DNA of 33,248 nt from an uncultured beta proteobacterium (lineage in GTDB: Bacteria > Pseudomonadota > Gammaproteobacteria > Burkholderiales > Burkholderiaceae_C): positions 1-33,248 of the forward strand of contig CAJAVE010000326.1 in NCBI GenBank assembly GCA_903945325.1. Direction: 5' to 3'. Below the pieces are notes generated by a model. The model made no database searches and had not been told where the DNA came from. It worked only from the letters and a program-made list of their open reading frames with translations. Position numbers and translations under genes: made by a program. Each line of letters begins with the position of its first letter. The stretch's first letter is position 1. Shown piece by piece: positions 2,122 through 27,700 of this stretch.

Positions 2122-2532
2122 ATGAGCCTACGAAAACATCTGATTTCTGTCCTTCTGGCATTAGCTACTTATGGCACGCCAGCGATAGCCACCGAAACCG
2201 AGACATTAGCCTCTGGTGTCAAGATTGAGCACACGACGCAGGGTACCGGTGCGAAGCCCACCGCCGCCGACAGGGTCAAGGTCCATTACCGCGGCACGCT
2301 GGCCAATGGCAAAGAATTTGACAGTTCGTACAAGCGCAATGAGCCAGCGGTCTTCCCGCTGAGCAAGGTGATTGCTTGCTGGACGCAGGGCATGCAAAGA
2401 ATCAAGGTCGGCGGCAAGGCCACATTGACTTGCCCTGCAGTAACTGCCTACGGTGATCGCGGTGCAGGCGCGGACGTACCCCCCAATTCAACGCTGACAT
2501 TTGAAGTAGAGCTACTCGCCATCGTTCCCTAA
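2122..2532 (+). CDS. Exported FKBP-type peptidyl-prolyl cis-trans isomerase
   Basis: A 136-residue protein with a signal peptide (KHLISVLLALATYGTPAIA, cleavage near residue 24) and one FKBP domain. Domain signatures are VKVHYRGTLANGKEFDSSY, followed by the core FPLSKVIACWTQGMQRIKVG, then the TAYGDRGAG loop and PPNSTLTFEVELL at the C-terminus. FKBPs speed prolyl isomerisation during folding; this one should act in the periplasm. Two cysteines flank the domain centre (ACWTQG and TCPAV) and could form a disulfide after export, which is inference. No clear ribosome site is seen. The gene is convergent with the Crp/Fnr remnant, whose last codon lies about 20 bases away. Confidence 0.92.
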   Translation: MSLRKHLISVLLALATYGTPAIATETETLASGVKIEHTTQGTGAKPTAADRVKVHYRGTLANGKEFDSSYKRNEPAVFPLSKVIACWTQGMQRIKVGGKATLTCPAVTAYGDRGAGADVPPNSTLTFEVELLAIVP

Positions 2533-2554
2533 ATGGCTGTGGGCCGTAGCGGGA

Positions 2555-3220
2555 TCAATGGGACCCGTAGCTGGCAAGCTTCCGAACATCAAGAACTCGA
2601 ATCTCGCGATTGTCAATTTCAATCAGGCCCTCCGACTCAAGCTGGTGCAACAACCGCGAGAAATACTCGGGTGTCAACTACAAACGCGACGCAATAGTGG
2701 CCTTGCTCACTGGTAGCGAAACGGTGACAACGCCAATATCGCCATCATGTTCCAGTTCGACATCGCGCAATAGGTATCCAATAAGGCGCTGCATGCCACT
2801 GTGCAAGGTTTAGCTCTCGACATCCAGCAACAACCGATGCAGCCAGTGCGAAATACCTGACAGCATGTGCATCGAGAATCGTGGGTCGCGCTCAATTTCA
2901 CTGAACACAGCCTGCTTGCCCACCGACATGATCAGGGTGTCGGTCAGGGTCTGCGCGTTCAGCATATAGGGTTTGGGCAAGAACATCATGGCCTCGGCAA
3001 AGCTGCGCCCCGGGCCAATCAGTTCTATGATTTTTTCCACTCCGGTTGCAGAAGCCACAAACAACTTCACCTGGCCTGTGACGACAAAGTGAAAAGACTC
3101 ACATTGTTCACCTGCCCGAAACACCATGCTGTCGCGGGCAAACCGGCGCAACCGGCAGCCGCGTGCCATGTTTTCTCGCTTGGGCGTGGACAGATTGCTG
3201 AACATCGGGATTGTCCCGCG
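2555..3220 (-). pseudogene. Decayed Crp/Fnr-family regulator (Dnr/NarR-like)
   Basis: In one reading frame the minus strand encodes a nearly full Crp/Fnr protein interrupted by two stops. The cNMP-type beta barrel is intact (FRAGEQCESFHFVVTGQVKL, then IIELIGPGRSFAEAMMF), with a dimerisation helix ending WLHRLLLDVES. A TAA at 2810-2812 follows where relatives usually have Tyr. Reading on gives TLHSGMQRLIGYLLRDVE and the DNA-binding helices VSKATIASRL, a TAG at 2678-2680, then LTPEYFSRLLHQLESEGLIE to a natural TGA at 2555-2557. The N-terminus is fused out of frame to the NarL remnant. The CESFHFVV-type barrel resembles denitrification/nitrate regulators of Burkholderiales, from memory. Two independent stops make a functional product unlikely. 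Confidence 0.88.
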
Positions 3221-3582
3221 TGGTGACCTGCAATTTTCGAAGAACACTCTGCACGTGCACCTTGACTGTTGTCTCTGCGATACCCAGTTCACGACCAATT
3301 TCCTAATTGCTGGACCATCACGATACGGGCAAAGGGAACAGCCACCTGTCGCGCAGAAAGCGCATCCACACCCCGCACGCCCGGCAAATGATTGTCCAGC
3401 AAGATCACATCAGGTTGCAGCTCTTGCGCGCGGCGCTGGGCCCAGCCTGCGTCTGCGACATCGCCCACGATTTGCACACGGGCGTCACGCGCCAGCAGGG
3501 CGGTCAAGCCCCGCCGAAACAGCGTGTGATCGTCCACCACCATCACGCGAATAGCAGGTTTATTCGTATCGGTCATAGGCAT
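3219..3582 (-). pseudogene. narL: Decayed NarL-family response regulator
   Basis: The receiver domain starts MPMTDTNKPAIRVMVVDDHT and reaches the phospho-acceptor loop ILLDNHLPGVRG, then VPFARIVMV, before it breaks near 3305. Immediately after, in a different frame, comes the recognition part of a LuxR/NarL helix-turn-helix: EIGRELGIAETTVKVHVQS then VLRKLQVTTR. About 80-90 codons that normally join the two (receiver end, linker and first DNA-binding helix) are gone, and the join is out of frame. The HTH end abuts the start of the Crp remnant, so a second deletion probably removed the intergenic gap. The phospho-acceptor Asp is kept but no working regulator can be made. The assignment to NarL rather than another LuxR-type regulator rests on the adjacent NarX remnant. 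Confidence 0.86.
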
Positions 3583-3590
3583 AGTCGGGC

Positions 3591-4587
3591 TCAGTTGGAA
3601 ATGGCTTGGGCAGGCTCATTGTCGGCCTGTGCCGTGTGGGTGTGACTCGCCAGCGTTAAACGCACAGAGCAACCCTTGCCAGGCGTTGAATGGACCTGAA
3701 GCACGGCACCCATGCGCTGGGCACGCTCGGCCATTATTTGCAGGCCAACGTGCGTGTCGTCGATGGGACCATGGTCAGCAACAAAGCCGTACGCAAACCT
3801 GTGTGGAGTTCAAATTTTTGCAGCGTTGTGGCCAAAGCGGGCTCGATATCTTCGGCGTTGGTCCGCGTATGAAAGTGGACCAGCAACTCGCGCACATCGC
3901 TATAGCACTCGCGAACGCCCGTGTCGATTTCTTCCAGAACGCTTTGCATCACCTCCTTGTCTTGGGATTGCATGGCGTCACGCATCAATTGCGCCTTAAT
4001 TTTGAGAAAGGCCAACGATTGGGCAATCGAGTCCTGCAGCTCGCCGGACACGGCGGCCTCGCGTGCCAAAGCGTTGAGGCGCAGGTTCTCCATCGCTCCG
4101 GCGAGATGGCTATTCAACGCTTCCAGTAGAGATCGTTCGGCCGGACTGGGTGTTTGAGCTGATTGACTAGCTCAAGCACAAACAGATAGCCGGCAACCAA
4201 CAACATCACTGCGCCCAGCAACGCCACAATCAACACACCAATTTGCAGCAGGTGCAAAGTCGCCGTCCACCCCGCCATATTCGACTCAATGCTGCTCACC
4301 ATGGCATCAATGTCTGCCGCAAAGGCGACCGTATCTGGGGTCAGGCGATCCAGGTTGTCTGGCTTGTGCTCTTACCAGTTGACACGAAATTGGCTCCAGT
4401 CACGCTCTACATCGGCAAAGTGTTGGCGAGCAATCTCATCCCACAAAACGTGCAACGGGCGCGCAGCATCACCATTGAGTTGCCATGACACCTACAAAGT
4501 GACCGCCGTCGCAAGCAACGCCAGCACCAGAAAGGGCGAAACAGCCAAAGCAAGTTTGCGGCTCAGGCTCAACCGCGTTGTAGTCAC
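3591..4587 (-). pseudogene. narX: Decayed NarX-like nitrate/nitrite sensor kinase
   Basis: Fragments of one sensor kinase lie in order on the minus strand. A GTG at 4585-4587 opens TTTRLSLSRKLALAVSPFLV (first membrane helix). A TAG at 4492-4494 follows, then periplasmic sequence, a TAA at 4372-4374, and IDAMVSSIESNMAGWTATLH with the second helix VLIVALLGAVMLLVAGYLFV. HAMP and GAF-like parts are missing. The next frame holds SPAERSLLEALNSHLAGAME and the HisKA_3 box GELQDSIAQSLAFLKI. The ATP-binding domain is reduced to its last part in a third frame: VGLQIMAERAQRMGAVLQVH to TGA at 3591-3593. About 1 kb survives, where intact relatives need roughly 1.9 kb. The phospho-acceptor His is Gln (ELQDS for ELHDS). 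Clearly non-functional. Confidence 0.88.
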
Positions 4588-4643
4588 TGTTATGGGCCAA
4601 ATCTTACTGCGCGGCAATGGCCCGCAGTGGAGAGGTGAGTGTT

Positions 4644-5003
4644 CTAGGAACTGACTTGGCCCATCGCCGTGGCCCAGGAGAAGACGCTGTTACCGCTCAC
4701 CCGCAGAGCCTGGCTTTGCTGCGCGCGCATACCGACACAATCTTTGCCGTATTGGGTGATCACATAGTGCGTGCACATTACCTGCCTGTCTGACCCCAGT
4801 CTTGCGGCTGCGCGCATTGCACGTACTGTGCCCTGGGCTTCGAGCTTGACCAGGCGATTGCGGGTGGATATCTCGGGCGCACTGACGTCCCTCGCCACAT
4901 CCTTAACCGCAACCGGTGCAGCCTGCGTTGACAGATGACGCAAGATCTCCAGCGATTCGGGCCACTGTTCGACTGGAGTATTTCGGTTGGAGTGCTTGTT
5001 CAT
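4644..5003 (-). CDS. Small winged-helix-like hypothetical protein
   Basis: A 119-residue protein from ATG 5001-5003 (MNKHSNRNTPVEQW), preceded by an AAAGGCGGCAGA ribosome site. An upstream in-frame start is possible but unsupported. The middle looks like a winged helix-turn-helix: ILRHLSTQAAPVAVKDVARD then SAPEISTRNRLVKLEAQGTV. I do not recognise the exact family. It sits 56 bases upstream of the NarX remnant on the same strand and downstream of Fnr-like palindromes, so it may once have led that regulatory operon. Unlike its neighbours the frame is unbroken, so it may still be expressed. The DNA-binding role is inferred from shape only. Confidence 0.6.
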   Translation of the reverse strand: MNKHSNRNTPVEQWPESLEILRHLSTQAAPVAVKDVARDVSAPEISTRNRLVKLEAQGTVRAMRAAARLGSDRQVMCTHYVITQYGKDCVGMRAQQSQALRVSGNSVFSWATAMGQVSS

Positions 5004-5090
5004 TCTGCCGCCTTTAGTTTGAGTCAACAAATAAAGGGCGACGCAACATCGAAATTTTGGAGCACATTTCGATGGCAGCCCCGCTAGCAA

Positions 5091-5104
5091 ATGACCTTGG
5101 TCAT
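5091..5104. promoter_or_regulatory. Candidate Crp/Fnr-family operator 1
   Basis: The palindrome ATGACCTTGGTCAT fits the TGAC-N4-GTCA form of Fnr/Dnr/FixK-type boxes, with only the outermost bases off TTGAC-N4-GTCAA. It lies about 90 bases upstream of the winged-helix gene start and 36 bases (centre to centre) from the next box. No binding data; inferred from pattern and from the adjacent Crp/Fnr remnant. Confidence 0.45.
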
Positions 5105-5125
5105 GTAGCCCGGAAGCTTTGCGTC

Positions 5126-5141
5126 CTTGACTTTCGTCAAG
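5126..5141. promoter_or_regulatory. Candidate Crp/Fnr-family operator 2
   Basis: A perfect 6-4-6 palindrome, CTTGACTTTCGTCAAG, contains TTGAC-N4-GTCAA, close to the Fnr/Dnr/FixK consensus (TTGAT-N4-ATCAA and variants). It is about 130 bases upstream of the winged-helix gene at 5003. With the box at 5091 it forms a tandem pair of identical spacer length. Confidence 0.55.
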
Positions 5142-5286
5142 TTTGCCCTCGCCAGATTTGCTTTTACAAGCCGCCTCGCTGGCTGCGAATACAGGCAGGA
5201 AATAAATCCTGCACAGCTATTAACATGAATATTACATAGGCCAAAGACATATTGCAAGCAAATGCATCAAGACGATTGCTCTCGCT

Positions 5287-5300
5287 TTGATCTAGCGCAA
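5287..5300. promoter_or_regulatory. Candidate Fnr/Anr-type box 3
   Basis: TTGATCTAGCGCAA matches TTGAT-N4-ATCAA at eight of ten informative bases. It lies between the phosphoesterase stop and the tandem boxes, in a region with no gene reading rightward from it. It may belong to the lost promoter of the nitrate regulatory genes. Weak on its own. Confidence 0.35.
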
Positions 5301-5409
5301 TCGCTCGTAAAGATGCCACCCATGCGGATAGCTGCCCATGCTTTTGACGAGCGAGTAAAAATCCAACGCGCCAGCGCAGTGCGCCAACCAGTAGTGCAAC
5401 CGACTGATG

Positions 5410-6396
5410 CTAGTTTTTGTGGAATGACTTTGCCTGAAAAGGTCGCGCCTCGAAACGAAAGACTTTGGGGTCTTTGGCGTCTACAGTGGTTTTGATCCAG
5501 CCCATCCAAGGCGAACCGTATGTTTCTACCCGGGTGAAATTGGCTATCAGGTCCTGCGTGGCAGGGTCACGTAGTGGCTGATTGATCTGCTGTTGGTGTG
5601 AGTCGCCATGCACTAGCACCACTTGGCCCGCAAAGGCGAGGGTCTCCTGCCGCAGCTGGTTTAGAAAGTCTTTGTAGCCCGGGTGTGCTTTTCCTGCGGC
5701 AGCGGCCTCGAAGCCGGGGTTAGCCTGAATGACAACCATCAGACCGGCAGCTTGTATGGCACGGGCACGGGCAAAGGCCTGAGTCAACCAGAGACCAACC
5801 ACCGGGCTGCGTTGCTGAAACTCTTTTGAGGGGCCGCTTCCGCGCTGGGCGCCAGCGTAGTTGTTGTCACTGCCTGGCAGATTCAGACCCACAAAGACCA
5901 CACCAGCCGTTTCCCATCGAACATTCTCGCGGTAGGCTGCAAAAGCCGGATTCCGACTTTGCCGCGTCAGCTCAAACTGGCGTTGCCCCAGAGTTTTATC
6001 GTCTGGAAAAAAAAGTGTGCGCAGTTTCTCCAGCCGCTCGAGGGGGTCGTAGGAACCATTGCTGTGGCGATGGCAGTCGGTCCACTCGTTGTCGCCGGGC
6101 ACATAAACCAGCGGATGCCGTGACGCCTTGAATACACCCAAAATATCGAGAAAGGCCTCATCACTACAGACGGACCCGCCACTCTTGATGTCACCATCAT
6201 GAATCACAAACGCGAGGTCTTCGGAATCCATTTCCGCCATCAATTCAGGCAGCAACTCGCGCTCGCGCTGGCTGTAGGCTGTATCACCAAATAGTCCAAT
6301 AGTGATGGGCTGGGTCCTGGTTTGGGCTAACGCTACTCCTGTCAAACTCCAAAGCAGCAGCAAGATAGCAAGGGGGCAATATGTGCGCGTGATCAT
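5410..6396 (-). CDS. Exported calcineurin-like metallophosphoesterase
   Basis: A 328-residue protein with a signal peptide (core LAILLLLWSLTGVALA, cleavage about residue 25). It carries the metallophosphoesterase blocks in order: GD at 37-38 (LFGDTAY), HDGD at 66-69 (VIHDGDIKSGG), GDNE at 101-104 (VPGDNEWTDC), and a late VLVHGDSHQQQ that corresponds to the GHxH metal-binding block. The fold uses two metal ions to hydrolyse phosphoesters; the substrate cannot be told from sequence. The signal peptide places it in the periplasm or outside the cell. It stands alone, with decayed IS sequence upstream and the Fnr-box region downstream, so no operon partner hints at its role. All metal-binding motifs look intact. 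Confidence 0.88.
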   Translation of the reverse strand: MITRTYCPLAILLLLWSLTGVALAQTRTQPITIGLFGDTAYSQRERELLPELMAEMDSEDLAFVIHDGDIKSGGSVCSDEAFLDILGVFKASRHPLVYVPGDNEWTDCHRHSNGSYDPLERLEKLRTLFFPDDKTLGQRQFELTRQSRNPAFAAYRENVRWETAGVVFVGLNLPGSDNNYAGAQRGSGPSKEFQQRSPVVGLWLTQAFARARAIQAAGLMVVIQANPGFEAAAAGKAHPGYKDFLNQLRQETLAFAGQVVLVHGDSHQQQINQPLRDPATQDLIANFTRVETYGSPWMGWIKTTVDAKDPKVFRFEARPFQAKSFHKN

Positions 6397-6879
6397 AAAT
6401 TTGAATGCGTTAGTCGTTAAGAGTAGCGTCGCGCTTAGGACTTTGCGCTCTGCTTTCCAGAATCACACTGGCGGCAGCATGCTTTCGGCGAATGGAAAAC
6501 TTGCGATAAATACATCGGGGGTGGACTGTATGTCCCCACGTAGTACGGCGCCAGCGGATCAGGTTTCCCAATCTGTTCTGCACATACGGGGGTAGTTCGC
6601 GCCCATCAGGCATAGTGTATTCCGACGCCGGTTCACTGACCAAGACTGATCCCCTTACGCGATCAAATCGTCTCGCGACCACACCCGCGGCGAAGCGTTT
6701 CCAATCTTTGCGTCATGGAACCCCTGCAAAGGCTTTACATGCACGCTCCCGGTTTGCCAAGCTTTCAATTCATTCTGGCTCGAAGGTAAAAATTGCACCC
6801 TTACATTCGGACTTTTGGTGTGACTTTTGATCACTGTCCCTGATGGGATTCGCTGGACGGCGCCTCGATTGCTTGCGCG
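6397..6879. other. Unassigned stretch between phosphoesterase and IS remnant
   Basis: About 480 bases without a recognised gene. A 90-codon open frame on the minus strand (6410-6682, containing TMPDGRELPPYVQNRLGNLI) is the longest, but it resembles nothing I know and has no clear ribosome site. The stretch lies between the IS110 remnant and the phosphoesterase and may be further insertion debris or the phosphoesterase leader region. Confidence 0.4.
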
Positions 6880-7440
6880 CTGTCACCGACCGGCGTATAC
6901 GATCAGAACGGAACTCTTTATCGTGGACCTGTAACTCCCACCCAATGCGCGCGTTCTTGTTGCCCCGTGCCACGGCCGCCACATTCTCGTTTCTGCGTTT
7001 GAGCACACCACCGACCCAACTGCAGGAATCGGGTTTTCGACTCTCCCAGTGAATCACCGAACGGGCACCGTAATTCAGCAAAGTGCGCATGTAAATGTCA
7101 CCTCGCTTGTTGATTCCCAGCAGGTTTAGTTTTCCCCCGCTGGAGTGCTGCCGGGCTACCAGGCGCAGCCAAGCTGCCACCTGCTTGGCAACATGCCCAC
7201 AATGCCATGGGGATCTATCAGGCCAAACTCTGACAGCAAGCCCCGAATCTGGCTGGCCTGGGCGGTGCGCGCTTTGACGAACCCTTGGCGCACCGTATGC
7301 AGTGCCGATACGCTTTGTCGCTCCGCGTTTTTGATCGGCACAAAGCGCATGTTGGGTCGGGTCATGGTTTCGCAGATGGCCTCTGCATCAGCGGCATCGT
7401 TCTTGTTGGTCTTGACATAGGGCCAAACGGTCGCCCATAG
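6880..7440 (-). mobile_element. IS110-family transposase remnant
   Basis: Pieces of an IS110/IS1111-type transposase lie in order on the minus strand. The first is YVKTNKNDAADAEAICETMT then VRQGFVKARTAQASQIRGLL and SEFGLIDPHGI, part of the N-terminal DEDD-type domain. About 150 codons are then missing, and after a frame change the C-terminal domain follows: VAAWLRLVARQHSSGGKLNL, LGINKRGDIYMRTLLNYGAR and RRNENVAAVARGNKNARIGW. The start of the gene is also missing; the remnant ends 35 bases from the stop of the nitronate monooxygenase gene. It cannot encode a working transposase. Element ends were not found; IS110 elements often lack clear inverted repeats. Confidence 0.88.
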
Positions 7441-7474
7441 CTACCCGTGGACTGCTTGGCCAGGACACGCAGCG

Positions 7475-8428
7475 TTAAAGGGCCAGCCGTGCTCTAGCCT
7501 TTGCGTACTCGCGCTTGAGTTGGGCCACAAAGTCGGCCACCGGTTGCACCTGGGTCACGGCACCAATGCCCTGGCCGCAGCCCCAGATGTCTTTCCAGGC
7601 CTTGCTCTTGTCGCCGCCAAAATTCATTTTGCTGGGATCGCTTTCAGGCAGGTTGGCCGGGTCCAGACCGGCTGCGCGGATGCTGGGAGCCAGGTAGTTG
7701 CCGTGCACGCCGGTGAACAGGTTGCTGTAAACAATTTCATCCGAGTTGCTGTCCACAATCGCCTGCTTGTAGGCATCGCTGGCACGGGCTTCTTCGGTCG
7801 CAATGAAAGCCGAGCCAATGTAGGCAAAGTCTGCACCGCAAGCCTGTGCAGCCAGCACGGCGTCGCCCGTGGCAATGGAGCCACTCAAGGCAATGGGGCC
7901 ATCAAACCACTGGCGAAGCTCCTGCACCAGCGCAAACGGGCTCTTCACCCCCGCATGGCCACCGGCACCAGCCGCCACGGCGATCAGGCCGTCAGCGCCT
8001 TTCTCGATGGCTTTGTGGGCGTGCTTGTTGTTGATGACATCGTGCAGCACCACGCCACCGTAGCTGTGGGCTGCGGCGTTGATGTCCTCACGCGCGCCAA
8101 GGCTGGTGATGATGATGGGCACCTTGTACTTGACGCACATCGCCATGTCGTGCTCGAGGCGGTCATTGCTCTTGTGCACGATCTGGTTGATGGCGAACGG
8201 GGCGGCCGGTTTGTCCGGGTTGGCCGCGTTGTAGGCCGCCAGTGCCCCGGTGATTTCGATCAGCCACTCCTCTAGTTGCTCGGCAGGCCGTGCATTGAGT
8301 GCGGGCATGGAGCCCACCACACCGGCGATGCACTGGGCGATCACCAGCTTCGGGTTGCTGATGATGAACAGCGGCGAACCGATAACCGGGAATGGCAGGC
8401 GGTCCAGGGGTGCGGGAAGTTTTGACAT
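7475..8428 (-). CDS. Nitronate monooxygenase / 2-nitropropane dioxygenase-like flavoprotein
   Basis: A 317-residue FMN-dependent TIM-barrel protein of the NMO/2-nitropropane dioxygenase family. Signatures are the N-terminal FPVIGSPLFIISNPKLVIAQ, the glycine-rich flavin segment VAAGAGGHAG, and PIALSGSIATGDAVLAAQAC followed by GADFAYIGSAFIATEEA. Family members oxidise alkyl nitronates; many in this genomic context have no proven substrate. The start is taken at ATG 8426-8428 (MSKLPAPLDRLP), with GGAGG in CCTGGAGGCATTTTGAAC just upstream. This leaves two bases after the acyl-CoA dehydrogenase stop, so the genes are translationally linked. Pairing with an acyl-CoA dehydrogenase suggests a role in handling acyl or nitro-acyl compounds, which is inference. 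Confidence 0.9.
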   Translation of the reverse strand: MSKLPAPLDRLPFPVIGSPLFIISNPKLVIAQCIAGVVGSMPALNARPAEQLEEWLIEITGALAAYNAANPDKPAAPFAINQIVHKSNDRLEHDMAMCVKYKVPIIITSLGAREDINAAAHSYGGVVLHDVINNKHAHKAIEKGADGLIAVAAGAGGHAGVKSPFALVQELRQWFDGPIALSGSIATGDAVLAAQACGADFAYIGSAFIATEEARASDAYKQAIVDSNSDEIVYSNLFTGVHGNYLAPSIRAAGLDPANLPESDPSKMNFGGDKSKAWKDIWGCGQGIGAVTQVQPVADFVAQLKREYAKARARLAL

Positions 8429-8430
8429 GT

Positions 8431-10221
8431 TCAAAATGCCTCCAGGGCCAGCGCTGTGACGCACTCGGCGCCTTCCACAATGCTGTCGCGCAAGCCGGGG
8501 GCCTTGGTCAACAGATGGTCACCGTAGAAGCGCGCGGTGATGATCTTGGCCTGCATGAACGCCACATCAGTGCCTACCGCAATTTGCTCTTGCGCAACCA
8601 GCATGGCACGCGCCATTTGCCAGCCTGCCATCACATTGCCTGCCAGCATCAGGTAGGGCACGCTGCCTGCAAACACAGCGTTGGGGCTGGCCTTGGTGTT
8701 GCCCGCCACAAAGTTCACCACGTCGACAAAGGCTTCACGCGCGGCCTTCAGCCGTTTGGCCATAGCCAGTGCGTCGGGCGTTCCGCTCTTGATCAACTCC
8801 GCTTCCGTGCCTTCGATTTGCACCGCCAGCATCTTGCCGGTCTGGCCACCATCGCGCGAGGTCTTGCGTCCCACCAGGTCATTGGCCTGGATAGCGGTAG
8901 TGCCTTCGTAGATGGTCAAAATCTTGGCATCGCGGTAGTACTGGGCCACGCCGGTTTCCTCGATATAGCCCATGCCGCCATGCACCTGAACGGCCAGCGA
9001 GGTGACCTCCAGGCTCATCTCCGTGCTATAGCCTTTGACCAGCGGCACCATGAATTCGTAGAAGGTCTGGTTGACCTTGCGCACATCGGCGTCGGGGTGG
9101 TTGTGCGCCGCGTCGTAGGCCGAAGCGGCCACACTGGCCATGGCACGGCAGCCTTCCACATAGGCGCGCATGGTCATGAGCATGCGGCGCACGTCGGGGT
9201 GATGAATGATGGGTGCACCGGCAGCAACCGTGCCGTCCACAGGGCGGCTCTGAACGCGCTCGCGCGAGAATCGTGCCGCCGTCTGGTAGGCACGCTCGGC
9301 AATCGCAATACCCTGCACACCCACGCCGTAGCGGGCCGCGTTCATCATGATGAACATGTACTCCAGACCACGGTTTTCCTGACCCACCAGGTAGCCAACG
9401 GCGCCGCCATTGTCCCCAAACTGTAGCACCGCTGTGGGGCTGGCCTTGATGCCCATCTTGTGTTCGATGGAGACGCAATGCACATCATTGCGAGCACCCA
9501 GTGAGCCATCTTTGTTCACCATGAACTTGGGCACCACGAACAGGCTGATACCCTTCACGCCTTCGGGCGCGCCCTGCACGCGGGCCAGCACCAGATGGAC
9601 GATGTTTTCGGCCATGTCGTGCTCACCCCAGGTGATGAAGATCTTGGTGCCGAAAATCTTGAAGCTGCCATCGGGCAAAGGCTCTGCGCGGGTGCGCACT
9701 GCTGCCAGATCGCTGCCGGCCTGGGGCTCGGTCAGGTTCATGGTGCCCGTCCACTTGCCGCTGATCAGGTTTTCCAGATAGATGGCCTTCAATTCATCGG
9801 AGCCGGCGGTCAGCAACGCTTCAATAGCGCCGTCGCTCAGCAGTGGGCAAAGGGCAAAACTCATGTTGGCACTGTTGGCCATTTCGCCACAGGCGGCACC
9901 AATCGTCTTCGGCAGGCCCTGACCGCCAAAATCCACCGGGTGCTGCAGGCCCTGCCAGCCCGCTTCGGCGAATTGCTTGAAGGCTTCCTTGAAGCCCGGG
10001 GTAGCCGTGACCACGCCATCTTTCCAGCTCGTGGGATTTTTGTCGCCTTCCCAGTTCAGCGGTGCCAGCACGCCTTCGTTGAACTTGGCTGCTTCTTCCA
10101 GTACGGCTTGCGCGGTATCCAGACCCGCATCCTCAAAGCCAGGAATCTGCGCGATCTGGTCAATCTTGGCCAGGTGCTCAATATTGAACAACATGTCTTT
10201 GACGGGTGCAACGTAGCTCAT
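8431..10221 (-). CDS. Acyl-CoA dehydrogenase, large bacterial type (DmdC/FadE-like)
   Basis: A 596-residue flavoprotein that introduces the alpha-beta double bond into acyl-CoA esters and passes electrons to ETF, encoded just upstream. The start ATG 10219-10221 (MSYVAPVKDMLFNIEHLAKI) has GGAG upstream. Domain order: bacterial N-terminal extension, alpha domain, beta barrel with KWTGTMNLTEPQAGSDLAAV and FGTKIFITWGEHD, helical C-terminal domain with the catalytic base in YEGTTAIQANDL (Glu about 439), and the extra C-terminal domain seen in about 600-residue members. These include methylmercaptopropionyl-CoA dehydrogenases (DmdC) and medium/long-chain enzymes, so substrate length is uncertain. 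An intrinsic terminator lies between it and etfA. Confidence 0.95.
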   Translation of the reverse strand: MSYVAPVKDMLFNIEHLAKIDQIAQIPGFEDAGLDTAQAVLEEAAKFNEGVLAPLNWEGDKNPTSWKDGVVTATPGFKEAFKQFAEAGWQGLQHPVDFGGQGLPKTIGAACGEMANSANMSFALCPLLSDGAIEALLTAGSDELKAIYLENLISGKWTGTMNLTEPQAGSDLAAVRTRAEPLPDGSFKIFGTKIFITWGEHDMAENIVHLVLARVQGAPEGVKGISLFVVPKFMVNKDGSLGARNDVHCVSIEHKMGIKASPTAVLQFGDNGGAVGYLVGQENRGLEYMFIMMNAARYGVGVQGIAIAERAYQTAARFSRERVQSRPVDGTVAAGAPIIHHPDVRRMLMTMRAYVEGCRAMASVAASAYDAAHNHPDADVRKVNQTFYEFMVPLVKGYSTEMSLEVTSLAVQVHGGMGYIEETGVAQYYRDAKILTIYEGTTAIQANDLVGRKTSRDGGQTGKMLAVQIEGTEAELIKSGTPDALAMAKRLKAAREAFVDVVNFVAGNTKASPNAVFAGSVPYLMLAGNVMAGWQMARAMLVAQEQIAVGTDVAFMQAKIITARFYGDHLLTKAPGLRDSIVEGAECVTALALEAF

Positions 10222-27351: not shown

Positions 27352-27700
27352 CCTGCCTTCGTCGGCAAATGGATGTTGATCAAAAACCCTCATTGCCTGC
27401 GGGTTCTGGTCGATCGCTCTGATGAAAGTTATGCGCTGCTGGATGTCAGCAGTGTGCAATCGAAAGAAGGGCAAGGGAGTTCTGCTTTGGGCACAAAGGA
27501 ATCCACCAAGTACGACGCGTTACCGGCAATGAACTGGGCAACCCGTCAGCAGCCTTTCATGTGCAGTTCCTTTGCGTCTGTAGCAAGCACCTATCCCCTG
27601 GCCACACCGCAAATATGGGGGTCAGAGCACACGTCCGCTATGCTGCCGGTGATTCGACCCCCAATTCGCTTGCAGCGCTCGGTACCTTCGAACGCACTCA
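27352..27700. other. Non-coding stretch with 48-base inverted repeat
   Basis: About 350 bases between two convergent genes, without a convincing coding frame. It contains an inverted repeat, TGGGGGTC at 27616-27623 and GACCCCCA at 27656-27663, 32 bases apart. The sequence beside the first arm (GGGGTCAGAGCAC) reminds me of ends of small insertion-derived elements in this bacterial family. No T-run follows, so a terminator role is uncertain. Confidence 0.45.

Follow-up and report, generated by a model that had tools for sequence, protein, structure and literature searches.

The window, as we call the whole 33,248-nucleotide stretch of DNA analysed here, contains three adjacent regulatory genes of the nitrate type that are all broken, which raises the question of what was lost with them: nitrate respiration itself or one set of regulators. 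The initial annotation, made from the sequence alone, took the locus for a snapshot of stepwise pathway loss, in which the associated reductase genes might be gone or differently controlled. The locus, its intact counterparts and the remaining nitrate genes of the same genome are described below.

Organization of the locus

The decayed array occupies positions 2555-4593 on the minus strand, with the genes in the transcription order narX, narL, crp. The narX remnant (3594-4593, minus strand), of the nitrate/nitrite sensor kinase type, has suffered deletions of 150, 577, 21 and 175 nt and contains two nonsense codons. According to the alignment, its former start codon (4591-4593, minus strand) is lost; the codon is present in the relatives G022, G117, G082, G065 and G074. 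This is followed by the narL remnant (3218-3582, minus strand), with a deletion of 272 nt and one nonsense codon. Its 3' end has been lost via a 275-nt deletion, as has the 5' end of the crp remnant (2555-3217, minus strand), which contains two nonsense codons and retains its natural stop (2555-2557, minus strand) at the downstream end of the array. Pfam matches in the pieces are HisKA_3 (E 2.7e-10), Response_reg (E 6.7e-11) and cNMP_binding (E 2.4e-17).

The flanks are intact. On the downstream side, in plus orientation, are a gene for an FKBP-type peptidyl-prolyl isomerase (2122-2532, E 9e-29), which adjoins crp in intact loci, and trpS (748-2040). On the other side is a small winged-helix gene of 119 amino acids (4644-5003, minus strand), the upstream neighbour of narX in intact loci; its frame is open, like that of the FKBP gene. 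The leader of the winged-helix gene contains a c-di-GMP-I riboswitch aptamer (5071-5157, minus strand; Rfam RF01051, 77.4 bits for a gathering score of 35). Further upstream, positions 6770-7180 (minus strand) hold a degenerate remnant of an IS110/IS116/IS902-type transposase (PF02371, E 3.3e-07). When positions 2500-5500 were compared to plasmids with blastn, five distant records were matched, each covering 6-19% of the query at 64-71% identity.

Lesions of the three genes

Aligned with the intact syntenic block of G022, the window block shows six deletions (150, 577, 21, 175, 272 and 275 nt), which together remove 1,470 of the 3,510 nt (42%) that the G022 block measures from narX start to crp stop. 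Four of the six lengths are not multiples of three, and the same six lengths are obtained with all four relatives aligned (G022, G117, G082 and G065). In the original reading frames, nonsense codons are located at 4492-4494 and 4372-4374 in narX, at 3303-3305 in narL and at 2810-2812 and 2678-2680 in crp. The Pfam pieces and the alignment thus bear out the initial annotation in its description of a NarX/NarL/Crp block on one strand with all three genes broken, with internal deletions and at least four in-frame stops, of which we count five. By eye, short direct repeats can be spotted at three of the six deletion junctions (those of 150, 21 and 275 nt).

With its start lost, two nonsense codons and two frame-breaking deletions, the window narX has no open reading frame. 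The P-box with its G-x-x-R nitrate motif has gone with the 150-nt deletion; the motif NEAGRM was not found in three frames of positions 3591-4600 and is present in all nine NarX sequences checked. Nor were the ELHD phospho-acceptor motif and the ATPase G-box found in three frames of this segment, and both are present in eight out of eight full-length NarX sequences. In narL, the 272-nt deletion takes the linker as well as the second half of the receiver, and no single frame with a complete receiver and a LuxR-type HTH is left. Because these motifs and frames are missing, the window block can no longer supply a sensor kinase, a response regulator or a Crp protein that works, and we infer that no residual product is made from it.

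Intact counterparts in related genomes

A DNA search of 41 genomes (that of the window, G000, and 40 relatives) revealed the block region in 11. With an intact NarX as query, 39 out of 103 genomes of the genus were matched at E<=1e-40; trpS could be placed in 89 of these 103. NarX is located about 5 kb or less from trpS in six genomes besides that of the window: G022, G117, G082, G065, G074 (where trpS is cut by a contig end) and G012. In G022 and G012, the three genes are present intact between FKBP-trpS and the winged-helix gene. None of the six syntenic genus relatives contains a stop inside narX, narL or crp, so none shares the frame breaks of the window, and an ancestral break common to the clade is ruled out. 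Since all six syntenic genus loci are open and the lesions are private to the window lineage, sequence comparison confirms the window narX-narL-crp genes as a unitary pseudogene array. The loss is thus confined to the window lineage, while other regulators remain in the genome (a second narX and two open Crp relatives, described below).

One more block is found in a groundwater metagenome-assembled genome of Polaromonas sp. (L150), where NarX, NarL, Crp and FKBP match in order and over nearly their full length. The block is missing from the closed genome G061, in which FKBP and trpS are found together with the riboswitch and the winged-helix gene; the narX of G061 is placed elsewhere, 5 kb upstream of narG. 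G003 is without block, narX and narG.

The intact NarX of G022 consists of a PilJ-type sensor, a HAMP domain, a GAF-like region, HisKA_3 and HATPase_c, and contains the P-box NEAGRM-x-M with G-x-x-R. By these domains and the P-box, the intact orthologs are assigned to the NarX/NarQ family, with nitrate binding predicted; in the review PMC8199190, the P-box and its G-x-x-R motif are the nitrate-binding part. The G022 NarL ortholog contains Response_reg and GerE domains. The best NCBIfam matches of the intact orthologs are NarQ/NarX and NarL/NarP, at scores below the equivalog cut-offs (272 of 553 for NarQ, 198 of 578 for NarX and 194 of 250 for NarL). Unlike almost all representative neighbourhoods in PMC8199190, the trpS-locus block lies away from nar, nap, nir and nos genes.

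Crp/Fnr regulators of denitrification include the Dnr/NnrR type, and FNR proper has an N-terminal iron-sulphur cysteine cluster. The crp ortholog of G022 shares the cNMP_binding and HTH_Crp_2 domains with the Dnr/NnrR-type regulators, and inspection of its sequence by eye reveals no FNR-type N-terminal cysteine cluster. Its best NCBIfam match is FtrB, at 104 bits for a cut-off of 211; the gene is dead in the window.

Timing of the decay

Changes private to the window were counted at codons identical in G022, G117, G082 and G065. In a codon-position test, the block showed no difference between the window and the intact lineages (p 0.41), and the window block and window flanks did not differ either (p 1.0), so that no relaxation is seen. 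Counted by their effect on the protein, the private changes of the window block are 17 nonsynonymous (including 2 nonsense) to 35 synonymous, compared to 19:118 for the four intact lineages pooled. The Fisher p value is 0.006, or 0.017 without the nonsense codons, with the qualification that this was the second of two tests, run after the codon-position counts had shown nothing. For trpS and FKBP, the nonsynonymous to synonymous counts are 2:34 in the window and 15:94 in the other lineages (p 0.24). Pairwise dN/dS is raised only slightly, at synonymous distances that are saturated. A mixture estimate has 8-11% of the window branch free of constraint, with bootstrap limits of 0.02-0.24 by transition weight. 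As a weak estimate, these counts suggest that the decay may have been late, taking up about a tenth of the branch.

Nitrate genes elsewhere in the genome

The genome of the window, that of a freshwater bacterium, is a draft of 394 contigs with a contamination of 2.03%. It contains narG above the cut-off on two contigs, C2 (L038) and C357 (L039), each of which is cut inside narG by the contig end and continues with narHJI-type genes. The two narGHJI operons are 90.5% identical over 5,904 nt, and their NarG proteins 99.1% identical over 700 residues; they may be either an older duplication or the product of strain mixing, which could in principle also account for C189, the contig with the second narX. 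A napA gene is located on C376, with a cd1 nitrite reductase protein 2 kb upstream, and a nosZ-type match on C107 spans positions 411-627 of the model and is cut off by the contig end. Crp relatives with open frames are present on C2 and C376, near the nar and nap genes.

On C189, the second NarX has an open frame of 256 residues before the contig ends, and over residues 6-259 it is 57% identical to the G022 NarX. A second narL of the same type was not found in the assembly; a NarL query has 16 matches there at E<=1e-8, and two of these are pieces from the window itself. The kinase-regulator pair on C340 is more distant, with 28% (NarX) and 42% (NarL) identity to the trpS-locus pair; on this contig, the stretch 4778-9810 (L066) has a molybdopterin-type oxidoreductase beside the NarX/NarL-like pair.

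A second narX lineage and the distribution of narG

Trees were calculated from 36 NarX proteins, the C189 NarX and the window pieces, in an N-terminal and a full version. The window pieces belong to the clade of trpS-locus sequences, which is supported at 0.982 (N-terminal tree) and 0.948 (full tree), and are placed next to G082, G065 and G117 (0.930 and 0.951). The C189 NarX is placed outside this clade, at a position that the trees do not fix exactly; for narX, this rules out a recent duplication within the genome with one copy decaying. The genes beside the C189 narX match those of clade members, with nucleotide identities of up to 91% (G117), 88% (G082) and 87% (G022), so contig C189 is native to the genome. 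When positions 1-7000 of C189 were compared with eight relatives by blastn, the first 1.9 kb remained unmatched in all eight, six of which have sequence there. The frames of the relatives on that side are presumably dapF-like in G048 and xerC-like in G061, G048 and G015. Given that the relatives differ on this side, the second narX lies at a place not seen occupied by narX in them. A dispersed repeat of about 0.1-0.2 kb is shared by window positions 27482-27698 and C189 (L065, 1200-1415) at 74% identity; on C189 it is close to the side with the second narX, and further copies occur on other contigs, both in this genome and in relatives.

Among the 103 genus genomes, narG (E<=1e-100) is present in 36, but in none of the six with an intact block, while the genome of the window has two copies. 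This genome is the only one of the seven in the clade with narG and the only one with a second nitrate-type NarX. The six are drafts (93, 91, 91, 78, 66 and 88% complete), so a single absence carries little weight, but it is unlikely that gaps account for a missing narG in all of them. NapA is above the cut-off in five of the six (not in G022), a strong cd1 match is present in each, and a nosZ-type match in five (not in G065), the latter scoring below the curated cut-off of a model made for another NosZ clade. As no narG is seen in these relatives, the block probably serves their nap and nir genes. Gain of narG in the window genome and its loss in the six are both compatible with the NarG and NarX trees. 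Loss of the block accompanies more, not fewer, nitrate reductase genes.

Explanations for the loss of the block

The explanation that we favour, at a probability of roughly one half, is replacement: the old, unlinked block would have been displaced by a system associated with narGHJI and containing the second NarX, and then eroded. The ancestral narX-narL-crp block may have been inserted, or kept, between the c-di-GMP riboswitch and winged-helix gene and FKBP-trpS in the clade. Selection on it would have ceased in one lineage only, with erosion by the six deletions, nonsense changes and start loss. The block would have been dispensable because the second NarX, together with a presumed NarL partner outside the assembly and the two other Crp proteins, had taken over nitrate sensing. 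The link between replacement and decay comes from a single lineage, without independent repeats, and contig C189 ends inside the second narX, leaving the rest of that gene and its narL partner unseen.

Plain decay of a regulator no longer useful, by drift or in a changed niche and unconnected with narGHJI or the second narX, is a serious but less probable explanation. It agrees with a loss in one lineage only, and the other Crp and NarL-type regulators are plentiful enough in the genome for the loss to cost little; it leaves as a coincidence that, among the seven genomes of the clade, the decayed member alone has narG and alone has a second nitrate-type NarX.

Recent loss of control over nitrate respiration, as a step in the loss of the pathway, now appears improbable. 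All three regulator genes are dead, and the genome has one cd1-type protein and no nirF/nirN-like second match, where five of the six relatives with an intact block have two to four matches (G074 has one). However, narGHJI (twice), napA, the cd1 protein and the nosZ piece are present and open, which rules out loss of the reductases. Of the initial interpretation, the loss of a regulator block stands and the loss of the nitrate pathway does not; it shifts to the loss of one unlinked regulator block, most likely by replacement. A broken nitrate regulator should accordingly not be read as the loss of nitrate respiration.

A sequencing or assembly artefact might be suspected in so fragmented a draft, but is very unlikely given the number, size and clustering of the lesions: three adjacent genes have collected six separate deletions (the longest of 577 nt), five nonsense codons and the loss of a start codon, and the flanking genes on the same contig are open. 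Least likely of all is a remnant that still works, for instance as a short cNMP-binding protein or as a protein consisting of the receiver only (3289-3582). Pfam still scores both pieces, and amino-acid identity is still high. The receiver, however, has lost its second half, and its reading frame terminates in unrelated sequence; the cNMP piece could be started in frame only by way of the out-of-frame narL piece, and it meets a nonsense codon before the DNA-binding domain.

Replacement has a partial parallel in Thermus thermophilus NAR1, where, according to PMC7694296, nitrate reductase and nitrate/oxygen regulators can enter a new host together, and pathway genes decay by deletion in some strains. 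The regulators named there are DnrST/DrpAB rather than NarXL. In our case, it is the older regulator block that decays and not the reductase genes, and a transfer is hypothetical. The window genes are ordinary pseudogenes with an informative history. In most cases, regulator turnover shows only in whether a gene is present or absent. The dead block described here can still be read, relatives have intact counterparts at the same place, and its own genome contains the likely replacement, which makes the order of events testable.

The riboswitch and the winged-helix gene

A scan of named genomes for the winged-helix family yielded 17 loci. The c-di-GMP-I aptamer (RF01051) is present in all eight other trpS-locus sources searched (70.1-81.3 bits) and in L150, and the pair of riboswitch and winged-helix gene at all ten trpS-type loci examined, window included. 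The window copy of the winged-helix protein scores below the Pfam cut-off for HTH_IclR and the G022 copy above it. In seven intact loci, 42-66 nt separate the winged-helix stop from the narX start, a spacing that fits, without proving, a single operon. The leader folds better than its shuffles (z -3.0), and in the minimum-energy fold the segment before the ribosome site pairs with the aptamer. In a competing hairpin over the ribosome site, 95% of cells are paired and there are no two-sided changes.

We offer, as a tentative and rather doubtful extension, that in this Rhodoferax-type clade c-di-GMP could gate the making of the nitrate sensor system, which would form one operon with the riboswitch and winged-helix gene. 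In the lineage with narGHJI and the other NarX, the downstream part would have been displaced and eroded and the riboswitch and first gene kept, as a half-erased trace of an exchange of the entire set of nitrate regulators. With a riboswitch at the head of the arrangement upstream of narX, an effect of c-di-GMP on nitrate sensing in these bacteria can be tested simply. A limited search of literature titles returned none on a decayed narXL block in Rhodoferax or on a c-di-GMP-I riboswitch ahead of narX. A second subfamily of the winged-helix protein (L152-L160, 56-63% identity) is without the c-di-GMP-I aptamer at all nine of its loci, and at several of these the adjacent genes resemble, by eye, tsaD, genes for nitrate transport and one for a NasT-type regulator.
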